Below are positions 2,187 through 9,556 of a stretch of DNA of 64,000 nucleotides, one piece after another. Within the stretch, counting starts at the first letter, position 1. Every line of letters begins with the position of its first letter. This stretch comes from Candidatus Saccharimonadota bacterium. Its GTDB lineage: Bacteria; Patescibacteriota; Saccharimonadia; Saccharimonadales; Saccharimonadaceae. The notes beneath the pieces were generated by a model. The model was not told the origin of the DNA, ran no database searches, and saw only the letters and a list, made by a program, of their open reading frames with translations. The position numbers and the translations under genes are program-made. Where the stretch lies: assembly GCA_017536895.1 (NCBI GenBank), contig JAFWCN010000017.1:1-64000 (forward strand), in the 5' to 3' direction.

Positions 2187-2209
2187 TTACTTCTTTTGAG
2201 CCAATCATC

Positions 2210-2240
2210 GTAAATAATCGTAAATGATTATTTACTTTTT
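2210..2240. terminator. Bidirectional terminator hairpin
   Basis: A perfect 10-bp inverted repeat GTAAATAATC/GATTATTTAC (2210-2219 with 2226-2235, 6-nt loop) sits between two convergent genes and overlaps the stop codon of the - strand gene. A short T run follows on the + strand. The stem is AT-rich, so it may be weak. Confidence 0.55.
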
Positions 2241-2675
2241 GTCTTTCTTCTTCCCAAAGAGCTTACCGAGATGTCCAAGGTAGCTCGCCTTTTGTCCAAT
2301 ATCAATCGCATCTCCCACTACTGGAATATCACGCGCAATATCAGAAGCTTTTTGATGCACCGCCGCTCGCGTCGGCACTACGTTATTAACGGCTTGATCA
2401 ATTGCACTTTCAAGCGCACCTACCGCCGCACCTTTAGCTGCATTTGCTTTCGCACCCTTCGTTGCAATCTCCGTAAATAAATCCATGTATTTTTGGTTAA
2501 GCGGACTTTTTTGAAACTCTGTTTCAAACTCCCCCACATCTTTGCATTTCTTCCCTAACTTCTCGATGTCAGCAAACAGCGCATCAATCTTTTTCTGCAT
2601 TCCAGCGTCAATCTTAAAACTCGCAGCAAACGCATCCTTCCTAGCATCAATACTCTTTTTGATATTACTATCCAT
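2232..2675 (-). CDS. Hypothetical protein, helical, no recognised domain
   Basis: 147 residues, mainly helical, lysine- and alanine-rich, with no signal peptide. The middle (residues about 70-95) is an alanine/glycine-rich weakly hydrophobic stretch (KGAKANAAKGAAVGALESA) and the tail is very basic (GKKKDKK). A GGGAG ribosome site supports the ATG at 2675. I do not recognise the family. It stands alone between convergent and divergent neighbours. Confidence 0.55.
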   Translation of the reverse strand: MDSNIKKSIDARKDAFAASFKIDAGMQKKIDALFADIEKLGKKCKDVGEFETEFQKSPLNQKYMDLFTEIATKGAKANAAKGAAVGALESAIDQAVNNVVPTRAAVHQKASDIARDIPVVGDAIDIGQKASYLGHLGKLFGKKKDKK

Positions 2676-2787: not shown

Positions 2788-2816
2788 TTTACAAAATTGT
2801 CAAAGAATGATATAAT
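2788..2816 (+). promoter_or_regulatory. Sigma70-type promoter of the radical SAM gene
   Basis: TTTACA (2788-2793), a 17-bp spacer and TATAAT (2811-2816). A leader of about 30 nt follows, with GGAGGTG as ribosome site before the ATG at 2856. Unlike many promoters in this window it makes a conventional 5' leader. Confidence 0.7.
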
Positions 2817-2855
2817 ATTAAAAAGGGTAGTGCACATTAAAATGGAGGTGATTTT

Positions 2856-4193
2856 ATGCTCGTATCGGATTATTTTCAGTCCGTTCCTTATGATAAAGAA
2901 TTATCTACTATTTGGCATTCAATTTTCGGTAGACCAATGCTTGTCCCCGGCTTTCTAGTAGATCATCTACTAAAAGCCAGAGAACAAAAAATCGATCCAG
3001 ACATCATCACAGAATTTGATAAAGAAGTTTTTGACATTCTGGAAGAAGCACACATCATCGTGTCTTCTAAAAAGCAAGAAGAAACAGATATCCACAATCT
3101 TTTTTTGACACACAATAATCGCGGTCAAAACAAAGTCAAGTATCTGTCCCTCATCATGAGCGAAGAATGTCCTTTTCGCTGCACTTATTGCATCCATTTT
3201 GCAAATTCAAAACATTATTATAATCCAGAAAAAATGATGTCTGAAGAAACCGCAAAACGTAGTATTGACGAATATCTCAAAGCTATCACAAAAAACCACA
3301 CTGACGAAGCTTATATTAACTTTGGCGGTGGTGAACCATTGTTGAACTATAAAACCATCGAAAAGCTTCTTCCGTACATAAATGATTATCGGAAAAAGCT
3401 AAATATCCCCATCAAGATTGGCCTCAACACCAACCTTGCTCTGCTAACCAAAGAAATGGCAAAAACGTTCATCAAATACGATGTGATAGTCGCAGCCAGC
3501 TTAGACGGCACGAAACACGGAAATGATCAAGTCCGTCTCACAAAAAACCTGGCAGGCACCTATGATCAAATTATCCGTGGATTCAATATCCTTGAAGAAC
3601 TAGGGCGCCCATTAAAAAGCTTTGCGATGACAGTCACGGAAGCAAATTTTGCTGACGTTGATACCACGATTGTCGACTGGGCAAAATCCAAAAACATGGA
3701 TGAAATCCGCATCGATATTGATATCGTCGGCATGGTAGATGTACCAATCAGCAAAATCATAGAACAACTCAAAACAGTTCGTGCTTATGCCAAAACTAAA
3801 GGTATTTCTGTCATTGGCTTCTGGTCTAGACCAGCCGAGAATCTCGGACTTCTCCCAGAAAACGATGACATCGGTTTTTGTGGTGGAGAAAGAGGTAATT
3901 CGGTATGCGTTGCGCCAAGTGGTCAAGTATTCCCTTGCGGATACAGCAATTACCAAATGGGCAACTACGGCGACATCTCTCATATCGAAAACCAAGAATC
4001 CTACCAACAGCTTTTAAAACATCGAGATTTAAATAATCTCAAAGAATGCCGAAAATGTCCTATTTTAGGATTCTGCCGAGGTGGATGTCTCATCACCAAA
4101 GAGGCTAACGAGACCACCGAAAAACAATCATCGATGTGCCAACTCTATGTCGAGATGACAAAGGCAATTATTGCTGAATCAATCGAGGCATAA
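2856..4193 (+). CDS. Radical SAM/SPASM peptide maturase
   Basis: 445 residues. Residues 1-85 are an N-terminal segment that could act in peptide recognition. The radical SAM core begins with C105-x3-C109-x2-C112, which binds the SAM-cleaving 4Fe-4S cluster, and carries GGGEP at 157-161. The C-terminal SPASM region has Cys342, 351, 361, 398, 401, 407, 411 and 428, including the CX2CX5CX3C pattern, enough for two auxiliary Fe-S clusters. Such enzymes install thioether or carbon-carbon crosslinks in ribosomal peptides. A 30-codon peptide gene follows 34 bp downstream with a strong ribosome site and then a terminator, which supports a RiPP maturase role. The exact crosslink type is not predictable from sequence alone. 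Confidence 0.85.
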   Translation: MLVSDYFQSVPYDKELSTIWHSIFGRPMLVPGFLVDHLLKAREQKIDPDIITEFDKEVFDILEEAHIIVSSKKQEETDIHNLFLTHNNRGQNKVKYLSLIMSEECPFRCTYCIHFANSKHYYNPEKMMSEETAKRSIDEYLKAITKNHTDEAYINFGGGEPLLNYKTIEKLLPYINDYRKKLNIPIKIGLNTNLALLTKEMAKTFIKYDVIVAASLDGTKHGNDQVRLTKNLAGTYDQIIRGFNILEELGRPLKSFAMTVTEANFADVDTTIVDWAKSKNMDEIRIDIDIVGMVDVPISKIIEQLKTVRAYAKTKGISVIGFWSRPAENLGLLPENDDIGFCGGERGNSVCVAPSGQVFPCGYSNYQMGNYGDISHIENQESYQQLLKHRDLNNLKECRKCPILGFCRGGCLITKEANETTEKQSSMCQLYVEMTKAIIAESIEA

Positions 4194-4227
4194 GTTCAGC
4201 ATAAATCACACGAAAGGAGGATACGTC

Positions 4228-4320
4228 ATGAAAAAGACACTTAAAAAGCCTGTGATCATTAAAAAGATCAAGATGCCGGTCGTTTCAATGACCTGTCAGA
4301 GACCAAGCAACTGCCACTAG
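4228..4320 (+). CDS. Candidate RiPP precursor peptide
   Basis: A 30-residue ORF with an ideal AAAGGAGG site (4213-4220) 7 nt before its ATG. Residues 1-17 are strongly basic and leader-like (MKKTLKKPVIIKKIKM). The C-terminal part, residues 18-30 (VVSMTCQRPSNCH), holds the only two cysteines, C23 and C29, five residues apart. It lies 34 bp after a SPASM radical SAM gene and just before a terminator. Size, cysteine placement and context fit a substrate peptide for that enzyme. No peptidase or exporter is adjacent. The precursor role is inferred. Confidence 0.7.
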   Translation: MKKTLKKPVIIKKIKMPVVSMTCQRPSNCH

Positions 4321-4349
4321 TACTTAGGTCTTAGACAAATCCAACTTAT

Positions 4350-4376
4350 GGCGGTTCTTTACGAATCGCCATTTTT
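4350..4376 (+). terminator. Terminator of the RiPP unit
   Basis: A 7-bp stem GGCGGTT/AATCGCC (4350-4356 with 4364-4370, one G-U pair, 7-nt loop) is followed by ATTTTTATT. It closes the maturase-peptide transcript and lies before the next gene's own -10 box. Confidence 0.8.
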
Positions 4377-4380
4377 ATTG

Positions 4381-4386
4381 TATTAT
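4381..4386 (+). promoter_or_regulatory. -10 box of the nucleotidyltransferase gene
   Basis: TATTAT ends 6 nt before the ATG at 4393 and no ribosome site is present, matching the leaderless pattern seen elsewhere. It also argues against an upstream ATG at 4348, which lies inside the terminator. Confidence 0.5.
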
Positions 4387-4392
4387 ATTTAT

Positions 4393-5055
4393 ATGAATCC
4401 AAACGTTAAATCCATCCTAGAAATAATCAAATCACAATATAGCCATATCGACACCATTCTAGTTTTTGGCTCCGCAATTACACCAGAATGGACCGATAAG
4501 TCCGATATCGATATATTTCTAATCGACGATTCCTTTCAAGATTCTCGCTCCGAAAAAACTATCGATGACATAACCGTAGAGTTTCAAGAAGACAATCTTG
4601 AAAACATCAAAAACAACATCGAACTAGAACGCGGCAATCTTCTCCATCGCAATCTCTCCACAATGATTGCAACTTCCGAAATCGTCTCAACGAAATCTTT
4701 CGCCAAACTCAAAGAATTAAAAACACTAGCAAACGACGTTCTTTCTTCCGCACCTAATTACAATGATGAAGACATCAAGATGTGGCGCTATTCGATCACC
4801 GATTATCTAGAAAAAGCTGAAAAAGACATCGCCCGTGATGACAATATAGCTTTTTATATCGATGTCCATTACGTTCTTCAAAATGCACTTGAATTCTCTC
4901 TAGCCACCCATAACACCTACATGCCACAACCTAAACATCTAACCAAACTCCTCGCCGAAAAAGATCCAGAGCTACTAGAGATTTGGCAAAACTATCTCAA
5001 TGCCACAGACTTAAAATCCAAATTATCAATTCTCTCAAAGCTCAGTTCAAGATAA
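4393..5055 (+). CDS. Nucleotidyltransferase with helical C-terminal domain
   Basis: 220 residues from the ATG at 4393. The N-terminal half has the minimal nucleotidyltransferase signature: FGS at 25-27 followed by D38-x-D40 (KSDIDIF), the metal-binding pair that transfers a nucleotide to a small molecule, protein or RNA. The C-terminal half (about 115-220) is all helical and HEPN-like in appearance. Such two-domain proteins include antibiotic adenylyltransferases and MNT antitoxins; the substrate here cannot be told. The in-frame ATG 45 bp upstream overlaps the preceding terminator and was rejected. It converges with the DUF2268 gene across 46 bp. Confidence 0.7.
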   Translation: MNPNVKSILEIIKSQYSHIDTILVFGSAITPEWTDKSDIDIFLIDDSFQDSRSEKTIDDITVEFQEDNLENIKNNIELERGNLLHRNLSTMIATSEIVSTKSFAKLKELKTLANDVLSSAPNYNDEDIKMWRYSITDYLEKAEKDIARDDNIAFYIDVHYVLQNALEFSLATHNTYMPQPKHLTKLLAEKDPELLEIWQNYLNATDLKSKLSILSKLSSR

Positions 5056-5101: not shown

Positions 5102-5752
5102 TTACAAAACCACCCGAAACTCATCATACTTATCAGCAAAAACATCCTCAATCTTCTTCCCAGTCTTTTCAAGATATTTCTTCACCAAATAAAACCCTAA
5201 CGAATACCCAGACCAACGCGGGAGTTCTCCCACTCCTTTATAAAAAATATCATTATAATCAAAATCCTCAGCATCAAGTTGCCCTCGCAAAATACCAAGT
5301 ATCCTTTCAATTTCCTCATCACTTCTTTCAAGAATCGTCTTGATAAACAATGTTTTCTCTTCTCTATCTTTCACGAACTCCACCTCAAAACAAGTAGCAA
5401 TCCCCTCACTAATCATACATTTAAAAAGAGTGTTCGCCCATTCATCATTTTTACCCCACCTGCTAACATGACATATTTCATGCACAATTGTTTCAGAAAT
5501 ATAATTCTTCGTAGCATGATTCTCATCAATCGCAAATTCAATAAAATCAAAAGCCCTTGCTCTCCCACCAACTCCATCTTCCGGAATAACATATTCATTC
5601 AACCGATTCGTCACCAACAAATCAATATCCCAATCCACCTTAAGCAAAGGAAAAGCAAAACTCTCAGCCTCCTTCACCGCATCAACAATCATCTCCTTGC
5701 TCCCAACAAGATTCCCATTCGCCTCAGTCATTAATATATTAATCTCACTCAT
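5102..5752 (-). CDS. DUF2268-type putative zinc metallopeptidase
   Basis: 216 residues, consistent in length and layout with DUF2268, a predicted Zn-dependent protease family. The zincin motif HEICH lies at residues 91-95 and a downstream SEGIA at about 115-119 provides the likely third ligand glutamate (E116). No signal peptide or membrane segment is visible, so it is probably cytoplasmic. A TATAAT ends 10 nt before the ATG with no clear Shine-Dalgarno. It is a single gene convergent with the nucleotidyltransferase. Substrate unknown. Confidence 0.75.
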   Translation of the reverse strand: MSEINILMTEANGNLVGSKEMIVDAVKEAESFAFPLLKVDWDIDLLVTNRLNEYVIPEDGVGGRARAFDFIEFAIDENHATKNYISETIVHEICHVSRWGKNDEWANTLFKCMISEGIATCFEVEFVKDREEKTLFIKTILERSDEEIERILGILRGQLDAEDFDYNDIFYKGVGELPRWSGYSLGFYLVKKYLEKTGKKIEDVFADKYDEFRVVL

Positions 5753-5813: not shown

Positions 5814-6575
5814 TTATTTTTCGAAAATAAATAAATACTCATGCGCTAACAATAGAAAATTATATTTAATGCTATTCGTCTTCCAATAACCAGTAGCACG
5901 GCAGTTATGTTGTTCTTTTAAAATGATTTCTTTGAGTTTGAAGCCGGCTTCTTCAAAAACTTGCATAGTTTTAAAGCTTAAGGGGACTACATGACCTTTT
6001 TGCCGAGTGTCGCCCATTAGAATTGCACAGAATCTTTCAGGTTTTAATACTCGATAGCTTTCTGATGCTACGTCTCTCATTTCTTTAAGAAAGTCATCAA
6101 CTTTGAAGTTTGATAGGTCTTGTGGGATATCCTGATCTTCGCTGTAATGAATGATATTAGCATACGGAGGGTGCGTACATATCAAATCGATGCTTTCGTC
6201 TGGGATTGGCTTGAGCTTGCGAGCATCGCATTTAGAGATTTTAACTATTCCATTTGCGCCGTCATGTTTGAATTTGATTTTTTCGCGGCAACGTTTAAGT
6301 GCAACCGGATTAATATCCATTCCAATTATATTACGGTTTAATAGTTTTGCTTCTACTAAAGTAGTGCCACCGCCGGCAAATTGATCTAATACCCAATCAC
6401 CTTCTTTTGAATAGCGAAGCAGAATGTTTCGCGGAATATATGGCGACCAATTTCCGCGCCATTTTGCATCGTGTGTAGCCCAATTACCACGGTTAGGGAA
6501 ACTCCAAACGCTAGTCATTTCTAACTCGAAATCGTCTGGCCCCCACTTCTTTATTTCCTTCTTTTTATCGGGCAT
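5814..6575 (-). CDS. DNA methyltransferase, second methylase of the DpnII-like system
   Basis: 253 residues. The SAM-binding motif DQFAGGGTT is at 64-72, followed by IIGMDINP, and the catalytic THPPY motif is at 134-138. That motif is typical of N4-cytosine/N6-adenine methylases. The order (SAM motif first, then catalytic motif) differs from the classic DpnA methylase, which has DPPY first, so it is not a simple dpnA orthologue. It starts 5 bp after the stop of the DpnII-like nuclease gene, so the two are co-transcribed. It probably modifies the same or a related site to protect DNA. The third-gene position echoes the three-gene DpnII operon. Confidence 0.8.
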   Translation of the reverse strand: MPDKKKEIKKWGPDDFELEMTSVWSFPNRGNWATHDAKWRGNWSPYIPRNILLRYSKEGDWVLDQFAGGGTTLVEAKLLNRNIIGMDINPVALKRCREKIKFKHDGANGIVKISKCDARKLKPIPDESIDLICTHPPYANIIHYSEDQDIPQDLSNFKVDDFLKEMRDVASESYRVLKPERFCAILMGDTRQKGHVVPLSFKTMQVFEEAGFKLKEIILKEQHNCRATGYWKTNSIKYNFLLLAHEYLFIFEK

Positions 6576-6580
6576 ATAGG

Positions 6581-7435
6581 CTAAAACCTCTCAATTACGC
6601 CGTTCTCAAGGTCGTTTATATTATAGATGTCATCTAACACGTCAAAAGTCTCTTCTAGATTATTCTTAGCGCTATTCCAGCCCTTGCCATCAGTAAACCA
6701 AACAAACTTGAAGCCATCTATCATTTTAGCCTCAAGTGCAAGTGTCTTGTAGCTACGAGCCGTTTCATTAAGTTTAGAGCCGCCACTACCATAGAAATTG
6801 GTCTCAATTCCGTAAATGTTGCTACTAGTTTTAATTACGAAATCAAATCGTTTTTCAGTCTTACCTTGATTAGAAATAGCAGAGAGATTGATATCCCATA
6901 CTTTTTCAATTTCGCTAAGGTTCATTTCTTTAATGTAATTTTTGCCTTTGATGTAGCCAGCTTTCTGGATGTATCCTTCTACGAGATTTTCCATTAAGTG
7001 ACCGCCACGATTCTTGCGACCGTTAGAATCTAGGCCGGTTTCTACTCCAGTAGCATAATCGACTAGGTTGTTAATGATGTGGTTTGAAATAAGATCAAAA
7101 AGACCAGTTTTTCGCATGAAGGTTTTGTATTGTTCGATAGAATAATTTATCTTTTTAAAGTCATAGTTGTATTCGCCGTCTTCATCTATTGCGTAGATTT
7201 CGTTAGAACGGACCGCTAGTAGAATAGGAATGCATTTTAGTGTTTCTGGATAATCTTTGATTATTTTTTCGAAGTCATTTTCGATATCGTGTGAGCCTAC
7301 GAGTGAGTTCAATATATTAAGTTGAACTTTTATCGCGTCAACATTTTGATGCACTTTCTTAAAATCGATATAGTAGCCATAATTAGCAATACTCTCTCGA
7401 AACTCCCCCAACCATTCGTTAAAATTCCTTTTCAT
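6581..7435 (-). CDS. dpnII: Type II restriction endonuclease, DpnII family (GATC)
   Basis: 284 residues with strong collinear resemblance to R.DpnII: near-identical blocks include VDYATGVETGLDSNGRKNR (about 125-143), KRFDFVIK (195-202) and GSKLNETARSYK (219-230). D198 and E211, in RFDFVIK and the IETNFY strand, are in the right place for the catalytic acidic residues. The family cuts unmethylated GATC. The gene sits between two methylase genes with 15-bp and 5-bp gaps. The symbol follows the family name and is not a proven specificity. Confidence 0.9.
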   Translation of the reverse strand: MKRNFNEWLGEFRESIANYGYYIDFKKVHQNVDAIKVQLNILNSLVGSHDIENDFEKIIKDYPETLKCIPILLAVRSNEIYAIDEDGEYNYDFKKINYSIEQYKTFMRKTGLFDLISNHIINNLVDYATGVETGLDSNGRKNRGGHLMENLVEGYIQKAGYIKGKNYIKEMNLSEIEKVWDINLSAISNQGKTEKRFDFVIKTSSNIYGIETNFYGSGGSKLNETARSYKTLALEAKMIDGFKFVWFTDGKGWNSAKNNLEETFDVLDDIYNINDLENGVIERF

Positions 7436-7450
7436 TTTATTGTCCTTTCT

Positions 7451-8515
7451 TTAAAAGTTTGATATTAGTAATTCGCTGATTCTGCCACGTTTGTTACTAT
7501 TACGGTTTATCATGCGCATTGCAGAGACACGTTTAATGTTTTGATTTGCATACGCATTTTCAAAAAAGTTGTCTTCTTCGTTTGTGTTTTTTGGATCTGA
7601 ATTGCTAACCACTATCTTTGCTCCTTTATTATCTAAAAGTTGAACAAAATTTGCAAGCTCAAGCTGTTTGTCGTCGTCAAATAAATGCTCGGTGTATGAC
7701 GTAAAACTAGCTGTCTTCGTTAGTGGACGGTATGGTGGGTCGAGATAGACAAAGGTTCTGTCATCGATAAAACTTGCCGAGTCTTTGTAGTCACCGCATA
7801 CTATATTCGCATTTTGGAGTTTCTTGGAAACGAGCAGAAGGTTATTCGCATTACAGATTTGAGGGTTTTTATATGCACCCATTGGCACATTATATTCACC
7901 TTTGCGATTTACACGATATAAACCATTGAAACAGGTTTTATTTAGGAATATCATTAATGCAGCCAACTCTACGTTTTTGAAGCCGTCACGCTTTAGCTCA
8001 TTGAAGCATGCGCGTTTCGATATGTAGGCTTCTTTACGTTTTAGTGTGTCTAATGGTAAGTATTCATTCTCCATGCACTTTAGGAGAGAGATAAGCTCTT
8101 CTGGATTGTCGCGAATTGTGATGTAGGTATTAATAAGTTCTGCGTTGATGTCGCTAATATAGACTTCGTCTACATCGTATTTATTCAGTATATCAAAGAG
8201 TACTGCGCCGCCACCAACAAATGGTTCGGCATATTTTTTGATATGTTTCTTTTTTGTAAAAGGGTAGTATTTGCTTATTTCGTTTAATAATTGACCTTTG
8301 CCGCCAGCCCATTTAAGGAAAGGTTTTGCTTCATTTGTTTTATTTCTGGCTTTTATCGTTCTTGCATCGTTGGGTTTTTTTGATCTTCTTGGTATAACCC
8401 AAGAATTACCAACTATTTGAGCACCCGGGATTCTGCCTTCAGAACATAAAACTAAAACTCTACGTTGGGATATATCCCATTGTAATGCTGCTTCTTTTGC
8501 GGAAATTAGATCCAT
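7451..8515 (-). CDS. dam: Dam-type DNA adenine methylase with N-terminal helix-turn-helix
   Basis: 354 residues. From about residue 65 it is an alpha-class N6-adenine methylase: FLKWAGGKG at 66-74 (SAM binding), AEPFVGGGA at 96-104, and the catalytic DPPY at 259-262. Residues 1-50 form an additional excisionase/MerR-like helix-turn-helix (ISAKEAALQWDISQRRV, then GRIPGAQIVGNSWVIP) that classical Dam or DpnM lacks. The gene leads the restriction operon, so it protects GATC sites from the adjacent DpnII-like nuclease. The extra domain could autoregulate the operon. Upstream are a TATAAT and a GTGAGGT ribosome site. Confidence 0.9.
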   Translation of the reverse strand: MDLISAKEAALQWDISQRRVLVLCSEGRIPGAQIVGNSWVIPRRSKKPNDARTIKARNKTNEAKPFLKWAGGKGQLLNEISKYYPFTKKKHIKKYAEPFVGGGAVLFDILNKYDVDEVYISDINAELINTYITIRDNPEELISLLKCMENEYLPLDTLKRKEAYISKRACFNELKRDGFKNVELAALMIFLNKTCFNGLYRVNRKGEYNVPMGAYKNPQICNANNLLLVSKKLQNANIVCGDYKDSASFIDDRTFVYLDPPYRPLTKTASFTSYTEHLFDDDKQLELANFVQLLDNKGAKIVVSNSDPKNTNEEDNFFENAYANQNIKRVSAMRMINRNSNKRGRISELLISNF

Positions 8516-8836: not shown

Positions 8837-9541
8837 ATGAAACAAATCAAACCAATCATCTGGGGCATCGCTATCATCGCACTCGGCGTCATTTTCGGTG
8901 GCAACGCCATCGGCCTCTTTAATATCGACATTTTCTTTGACGGGTGGTGGACTCTATTCATCATCGTCCCCGGCGTCATCAGCTTCTTCACCGACAAAGA
9001 AAAGCTCTCAAGCCTCGTCATAATCGGCATCGGCATCATCCTTCTCCTCGCGGCTCAAGATGTCTTCTCTTACGACATCGCCTGGAAGGTTATCCTCGCC
9101 GTCGTTCTTATCGCCATCGGCCTCGGCATCGTCTTCCGTAGCGTCTTCCACACAAACAACGATAAAGAAATCGGCAAAAAAATCGAAGACCTCGAAAACG
9201 GCAAAATCATGGATTCCCAAACCGCCATCTTCTCCGGCAATGAACGCACCTATAATAAAGAATCCTTCCAAGGCTCCAACATCATTGCCATCTTTGGCGG
9301 AGTCGACCTAGATCTCATAAACGCCAAATTCGAAAAAGACACCGTCATCAAAGCCTTCTGCGCCTTCGGCGGTATCGACATCACCATCCCAGAAGACGTC
9401 CAAATCAAAGTCAGATCCGGCTTCATTTTCGGCGGCATCGACGACGAACGAAAAGATGTTACAGCAAAAGGCAAACACACTATTTACATCGACGCAGCTG
9501 GCGCCTTCGGAGGGGTCTCCATCAACTCCAAAAAGAAATAA
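8837..9541 (+). CDS. LiaF-like membrane protein (DUF5668 plus LiaF C-terminal domain)
   Basis: 234 residues. Four hydrophobic segments occupy about 1-105 (LiaI/LiaF-type transmembrane region with GWWTLFIIVPG). Residues about 135-230 are the beta-helical LiaF C-terminal domain with repeated FGGVDLDL, FGGIDITIP, FGGIDDERKDV and FGGVSIN turns. In Firmicutes LiaF restrains a cell-envelope stress two-component system; no LiaRS-like genes are adjacent here, so only the fold is supported. It has a conventional leader: TATAAT then AGGAGC before the ATG. Confidence 0.8.
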   Translation: MKQIKPIIWGIAIIALGVIFGGNAIGLFNIDIFFDGWWTLFIIVPGVISFFTDKEKLSSLVIIGIGIILLLAAQDVFSYDIAWKVILAVVLIAIGLGIVFRSVFHTNNDKEIGKKIEDLENGKIMDSQTAIFSGNERTYNKESFQGSNIIAIFGGVDLDLINAKFEKDTVIKAFCAFGGIDITIPEDVQIKVRSGFIFGGIDDERKDVTAKGKHTIYIDAAGAFGGVSINSKKK

Positions 9542-9556
9542 AACAAAACTCTAATA

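Follow-up and report, generated by a model that had tools for sequence, protein, structure and literature searches.

A three-gene cassette of Patescibacteria with a radical SAM/SPASM maturase, a near-invariant peptide core and a proposed, exchangeable self-immunity enzyme

We describe here, from computational analysis, a cassette of three genes in DNA of a Candidatus Saccharimonadota bacterium (assembly GCA_017536895.1, 836 kb in 17 contigs, 99% complete; contig JAFWCN010000017.1, positions 1 to 64,000, this whole 64,000-nucleotide stretch being called the window below), which encode a radical S-adenosylmethionine (SAM) enzyme of the SPASM type, a 30-residue peptide and a nucleotidyltransferase. 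We propose that the cassette is a locus for a ribosomally synthesised and post-translationally modified peptide (RiPP) that moves horizontally among Patescibacteria and provides both a cross-linked product and a self-immunity enzyme, and we give this reading a probability of roughly 55%; that the cassette is real and that the enzyme is paired with the peptide as maturase and substrate is near certain. An earlier note on this DNA had read a minimal RiPP locus of two genes, ending at position 4376. The RiPP reading is supported by the co-occurrence of both genes, by conservation of C23, C29 and the core of the peptide and by a predicted PqqD-like domain in the maturase; the two-gene view was incomplete, as a third conserved gene lies beyond that end (4393-5055) and the family is spread across Patescibacteria. 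No published description of such a RiPP from Saccharibacteria or Patescibacteria, nor of the string PSNCH, was found in open-licence full texts.

The pairing of maturase and peptide is carried by their joint inheritance. Of 174 genomes in the genus nine, counting that of the window, encode the maturase, with copies 58-68% identical to the one in the window, and a degenerate DNA pattern for CxxPSNCH has exactly one match in each of these nine genomes and none in the others, a reversed-pattern control giving zero matches in the 174 genomes (hypergeometric p 3e-15 for the co-occurrence, shared ancestry ignored). In the alignment of the nine peptides M1, K12, M16, P17, M21, T22, C23, P26, S27, N28, C29 and H30 are kept, and the ratio of nonsynonymous to synonymous polymorphism (pN/pS) is 0.066 for the core codons versus 0.37 for the leader codons preceding them. 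The core T-C-[QKR]-x-[PQS]-S-N-C-[HK]-stop recurs in 22 loci (nine of the same genus, twelve from a wider scan of one genome per species with conserved stretches of the maturase, and one from a sample of the phylum), the fixed codons all showing synonymous variation. The checks of conservation that the earlier note had asked for were thus passed: the small open reading frame (ORF) is conserved in the relatives that bear the maturase, and its block TC..PSNCH, with C23 and C29, is strict throughout apart from minor substitutions of the P and the H. The 30-codon ORF itself, with C23 and C29 as its only cysteines, was located as described, at 4228-4320 behind the ribosome site AAAGGAGG. Short ORFs are common by chance, and one may ask whether this one is untranslated or unrelated to the maturase; the perfect co-occurrence, the ribosome sites, the low pN/pS and the 22 loci refute this in practice, leaving it next to no probability, and we reject a spurious ORF. 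An encoded short precursor therefore adjoins a dedicated, co-inherited maturase, as in a RiPP locus.

The maturase has the domains that its reading as a SPASM radical SAM gene with complete cluster cysteines implied. Both Pfam profiles score above their cut-offs (Radical_SAM 58 bits, SPASM 24.9 bits); the CX3CX2C motif of the SAM cluster is formed by C105, C109 and C112, and the SPASM region (342-428) holds eight cysteines, C342, C351, C361, C398, C401, C407, C411 and C428, all of these cluster and SPASM cysteines being invariant in the nine same-genus sequences. The window enzyme carries the full set, and the equivalent of C351 is absent from one of its 21 relatives (L040). In the structural model (mean predicted local distance difference test, pLDDT, 84.7) an N-terminal b-b-b-a-a-a domain (residues 1-86, the fold being predicted at 7-86) precedes the radical SAM and SPASM domains. 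This N-terminal region, searched within the full-length maturase, is covered by the structure alignments with TigE and CteB, and we predict from the model that it is a PqqD-like leader-binding domain.

None of the NCBIfam families compared accommodates the enzyme or its peptide. The best NCBIfam match of the maturase is the PapB family of ranthipeptide maturases (NF047865), whose profile also matches all 21 relatives and which likewise consists of SPASM enzymes acting on Cys-containing substrates; the score of 149.8 bits versus a cut-off of 340 rejects membership, and PapB makes six Cys-to-Asp/Glu links, in CX3D/E motifs, whereas the core here is single, short and free of Asp and Glu. Among solved structures TigE (PDB 8vpo) comes closest across the whole protein, N-terminal domain included (Z 31.6), but identity is just 25% and the likeness is structural, not implying the same reaction. 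The SCIFF substrate has six cysteines. CteB and other SCIFF maturases (PDB 5wgg, Z 27.4; TIGR03974) resemble the window enzyme as thioether-forming SPASM enzymes with an N-terminal leader-binding domain, but membership is rejected by 109.4 bits versus 425 and by the two-cysteine peptide. The sole weak match of the peptide, to the streptococcal SSH RaS-RiPP peptides (NF050043), which share a short basic leader, reached 11.1 bits versus a curated cut-off of 45, over residues 1-22 in one of ten peptides scanned, and was rejected as well. As the earlier note had supposed in setting it apart from SCIFF and other recognised classes, the peptide is above the cut-off of no named precursor family in NCBIfam. 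A weak PADLOC match of the maturase to viperin (43 bits) is put down to the shared radical SAM core.

The third gene adjoins the peptide in all 22 loci, because of which a chance neighbour can be rejected, and its product is a nucleotidyltransferase in 16 of them and a GNAT acetyltransferase in six. The six GNATs belong to one family with the motif WWR(D/N)..L..LTSG (in L039 the contig stops within the gene). L032 has a short methyltransferase-like ORF between the peptide and the third gene. Within the 174 genomes the nucleotidyltransferase is found in the nine cassette genomes plus one more, with GS..DxD and a third acidic residue conserved. Its AlphaFold2 model (pLDDT 95) aligns over the full length with the aminoglycoside enzyme ANT(4')/kanamycin nucleotidyltransferase (KNTase; Z 12.9, 4.2 A, 213 residues) and also with LinB (Z 11.4), so that it has both the fold and the GS...DxD active site of antibiotic nucleotidyltransferases; identity to these is 11-15%, and here the context is a peptide cassette.

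Two kinds of transferase are exchanged at this position. Mapped on the maturase tree, the exchange requires four to five events, and well-supported branches force at least two of these, the long branches L051 and L040 being unsurely placed; the maturase of L032, which has a GNAT, is 91% and 90% identical to those of L031 and L035, which have nucleotidyltransferases. Third genes also occur without the maturase. An orphan nucleotidyltransferase is present in G008 (83% complete), and another in G616 (100% complete), where the maturase is absent genome-wide and the intact nucleotidyltransferase lies directly behind a start-less peptide remnant ending CTCQRPSNCH (L081, around 2200-2350, minus strand), of which the core is intact and the leader and start are lost. 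Orphan GNATs occur in G429 and G417, and within the genus (174 genomes) no orphan maturase was found. G417 is a less clear case than the other orphans, having a radical SAM gene 5-6 kb away. This SPASM-type gene of a distant family (L084, 1321-2720), followed by a 29-residue Cys-rich ORF (MPELSTGESSAGCPADVSCGDDCSCTDDK), is by its sequence a candidate for a second, unrelated RiPP of Patescibacteria. As would be expected for immunity, the third gene appears to be retained or exchanged separately from the biosynthesis genes, although just four orphans were seen.

The layout of the cassette in the window is as follows, its first part (2788-4320, promoter to peptide, with a hairpin and T-run behind) having been read directly from the sequence.
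2788-2816, plus strand: sigma-70-type promoter of the maturase-peptide unit, TTTACA (2788-2793), 17 nucleotides, TATAAT (2811-2816), from sequence.
2844-2851, plus strand: ribosome site of the maturase, GGAGGTGA, from sequence, GGAGGTG being invariant in nine loci.
2856-4193, plus strand: radical SAM/SPASM peptide maturase, 445 residues, from ORF, Pfam, alignment and model.
4213-4220, plus strand: ribosome site of the peptide, AAAGGAGG, from sequence, with counterparts in relatives.
4228-4320, plus strand: precursor peptide MKKTLKKPVIIKKIKMPVVSMTCQRPSNCH, leader with KKIKMP, core TCQRPSNCH.
4350-4376, plus strand: terminator-like conserved hairpin and T-run, whose loop holds the -35 box of the third gene.
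4358-4386, plus strand: promoter of the third gene, TTTACG-17-TATTAT, from sequence, ending 6 nucleotides ahead of the ATG.
4393-5055, plus strand: nucleotidyltransferase (third gene), 220 residues, with GS...DxD, a third acidic residue and a C-terminal HEPN-like helical bundle.

The consensus promoter and the terminator claimed by the earlier note were both found, the latter as the hairpin GGCGGTTC-TTTAC-GAATCGCC (4350-4370) with T5 directly behind; the -10 region of the maturase promoter is mostly retained across the nine same-genus loci. In the same nine loci, from nine species, the promoter of the third gene lies partly inside the loop of the peptide terminator hairpin, and its spacing to the ATG suggests that the mRNA of the third gene is leaderless or nearly so.

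Computation shows the gene set and its conservation, selection acting on the core, the swaps and the orphan third genes; the type of crosslink, the removal of the leader, export, toxicity and immunity are proposals. We propose the following course of events. The PqqD-like domain of the maturase would bind the basic leader (KKIKMP), and radical SAM chemistry would act on the core at the C-terminus, T-C-x-x-P-S-N-C-H. The likeliest outcome is a thioether that joins one cysteine, or each of the two, with a residue close by, and we hold it probable that a cysteine is involved in the modification. A housekeeping or host peptidase would then remove the leader, leaving a compact product some 9-10 residues long whose C-terminal His or Lys is free, and the third enzyme would most likely transfer a nucleotidyl or acetyl group onto this mature product within the producer, thereby inactivating it. 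PapB joins Cys to Asp/Glu (PMC9413430). As the core contains neither, the acceptor of a thioether, if one is formed, would be another residue or the C-terminal carboxylate, and we may speculate on S27 (at PapB spacing, C-x3-S), on N28 one further, or on this carboxylate, whose position is the same in the 22 loci.

Nucleotidyltransferases and GNATs both include classic antibiotic-inactivating enzymes. In microcin C self-immunity the GNAT MccE2 protects the producers by covalent modification of a peptide antibiotic, immunity enzymes interchange and standalone copies exist (PMC9239234), but maturation is by MccB there and by a radical SAM enzyme here, and immunity is here a proposal. It is these precedents, together with the enzyme swapping and the orphan third genes, that make us favour self-immunity by inactivation of the product as the role of the third gene, at about even odds.

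The third enzyme could instead be a tailoring enzyme. The active product would then be cross-linked and also nucleotidylated or acetylated, perhaps at the invariant Ser/Thr or at the last residue. The adjacency of the third gene to the peptide in every locus would fit, and RiPP pathways are known to transfer groups to peptides, as in nucleotidylation by MccB (PMC9239234). We nevertheless regard this as unlikely, since two transferases of different chemistry replace each other next to maturases and cores that are nearly the same, which suggests blocking of the product rather than its building, and since the third gene has its own promoter and third genes persist without the maturase. Still less probable, in our view, is an addiction module similar to toxin-antitoxin systems, with the modified peptide as an intracellular toxin and the transferase as an enzymatic antitoxin. 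Such a module would account for the lack of an exporter and for the patchy, mobile distribution (nine of 174 genomes in the genus, three of 380 in the phylum sample), and the third protein does recall the type VII system MntA-HepT (MNT-HEPN) in joining a nucleotidyltransferase to a HEPN-like helical domain, with Z 10.0 to the MntA-HepT entry 7bxo. However, it is one fused protein, its 18 bits to the MntA antitoxin profile (NF047752) are far under the cut-off of 60, no separate HEPN toxin gene stands beside it in the window, and immunity equally predicts a protective gene retained alone. A separate two-gene nucleotidyltransferase/HEPN-like pair was seen downstream of the GNAT on a Peregrinibacteria contig (L029, 3706-4409, minus strand). 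Equally improbable to us is that the peptide, with its C-x5-C-H end, is no weapon but a conserved small molecule under regulation by the transferase, acting as a cofactor, a metal ligand or a signal: a core that scarcely varies between candidate phyla, with its two Cys and its His/Lys at the C-terminus, would suit it, but not the sporadic occurrence, the signs of horizontal transfer or a swap that involves two antibiotic-modifying enzyme types.

Several observations weigh against self-immunity and a cross-linked, antagonistic product. On the maturase tree the swap label is neither more scattered nor more clustered than shuffled labels, and the four orphans are few, with fragmented assemblies able to conceal partners in all but G616. 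The nearest NCBIfam family of the maturase, PapB, requires Asp/Glu acceptors (PMC9413430), yet the core lacks them in 22 loci and leaves only the C-terminal carboxylate. The core hardly varies, unlike in many bacteriocins, and a fold common with antibiotic-modifying enzymes does not reveal the substrate. If the product is exported and toxic, it is unusual for such a secreted antagonist that no conserved exporter or dedicated peptidase is found in the flanks read.

Close relatives include MAGs (metagenome-assembled genomes) of Candidatus Saccharibacteria, several from ruminant gut. Beyond the genus, maturase relatives of 33-40% identity occur in Peregrinibacteria, Ryanbacteria, Portnoybacteria, Brennerbacteria, Magasanikbacteria, Staskawiczbacteria, other Patescibacteria and one Omnitrophica MAG. 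The small ORFs downstream of the distant maturases have mostly different and longer leaders, with a C-terminal end identical in pattern. The cassette is sparse, being present in three of 380 genomes sampled from the phylum, five of 295 of the class and about 5% of the species of the genus, while maturases from several candidate phyla are 80-92% identical to each other. From this identity we infer horizontal transfer and take the cassette as moving among Patescibacteria; the loci come mostly from MAGs, and binning errors could contribute. Two scans of viral contigs, and those of plasmids and phages, gave no close relative (below 28% identity among the matches listed) and hence no evidence of carriage by phages or known plasmids. 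The most divergent relative, L040 of Staskawiczbacteria, has neither nucleotidyltransferase nor GNAT and encodes a different Cys-rich peptide (9422-9553, ...IVCDQYGSSCNGC, ending VCDQYGSSCNGC), and is possibly a second branch of the family.

Of the neighbouring genes in the window, a predicted Zn-dependent protease of the DUF2268 type (5102-5752, minus strand) is convergent to the cassette. The claim that no exporter or peptidase is nearby holds for a conserved exporter or dedicated peptidase in the flanks read, but not for this protease, which we dropped as a leader peptidase because of its convergent orientation and because no such gene was seen next to the cassette in the flanks read of relatives. 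Just downstream, a DpnII-type restriction-modification system with two DNA methyltransferases and a DpnII endonuclease (5814-8515, minus strand; PF04556, 368 bits) suggests an accessory-gene region. A LiaF-like cell-envelope stress protein is encoded at 8837-9541 (plus strand), and in L023/L024 a look-alike (7142-7858, minus strand) immediately precedes the cassette.

Patescibacteria are mostly uncultured, gene-poor and ultra-small epibionts of a parasitic type, and we know of no cultured organism that carries the cassette. With three genes, 2.3 kb and a nine-residue core it is easy to synthesise and test. Only tentatively, and at less than even odds, may we suggest an antagonism or addiction system of Patescibacteria in which a near-invariant, cross-linked nine-residue core is shared horizontally together with two interchangeable self-protection enzymes of the drug-modification type. 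If true, it would be a natural setting in which enzymes similar to antibiotic nucleotidyltransferases act on a ribosomal peptide. Should the third gene indeed confer immunity, nucleotidyl- and acetyltransferases of the drug-resistance type would serve as exchangeable self-protection against such a peptide, and the cassette would offer a handle on competition among epibionts or on their effects on hosts.
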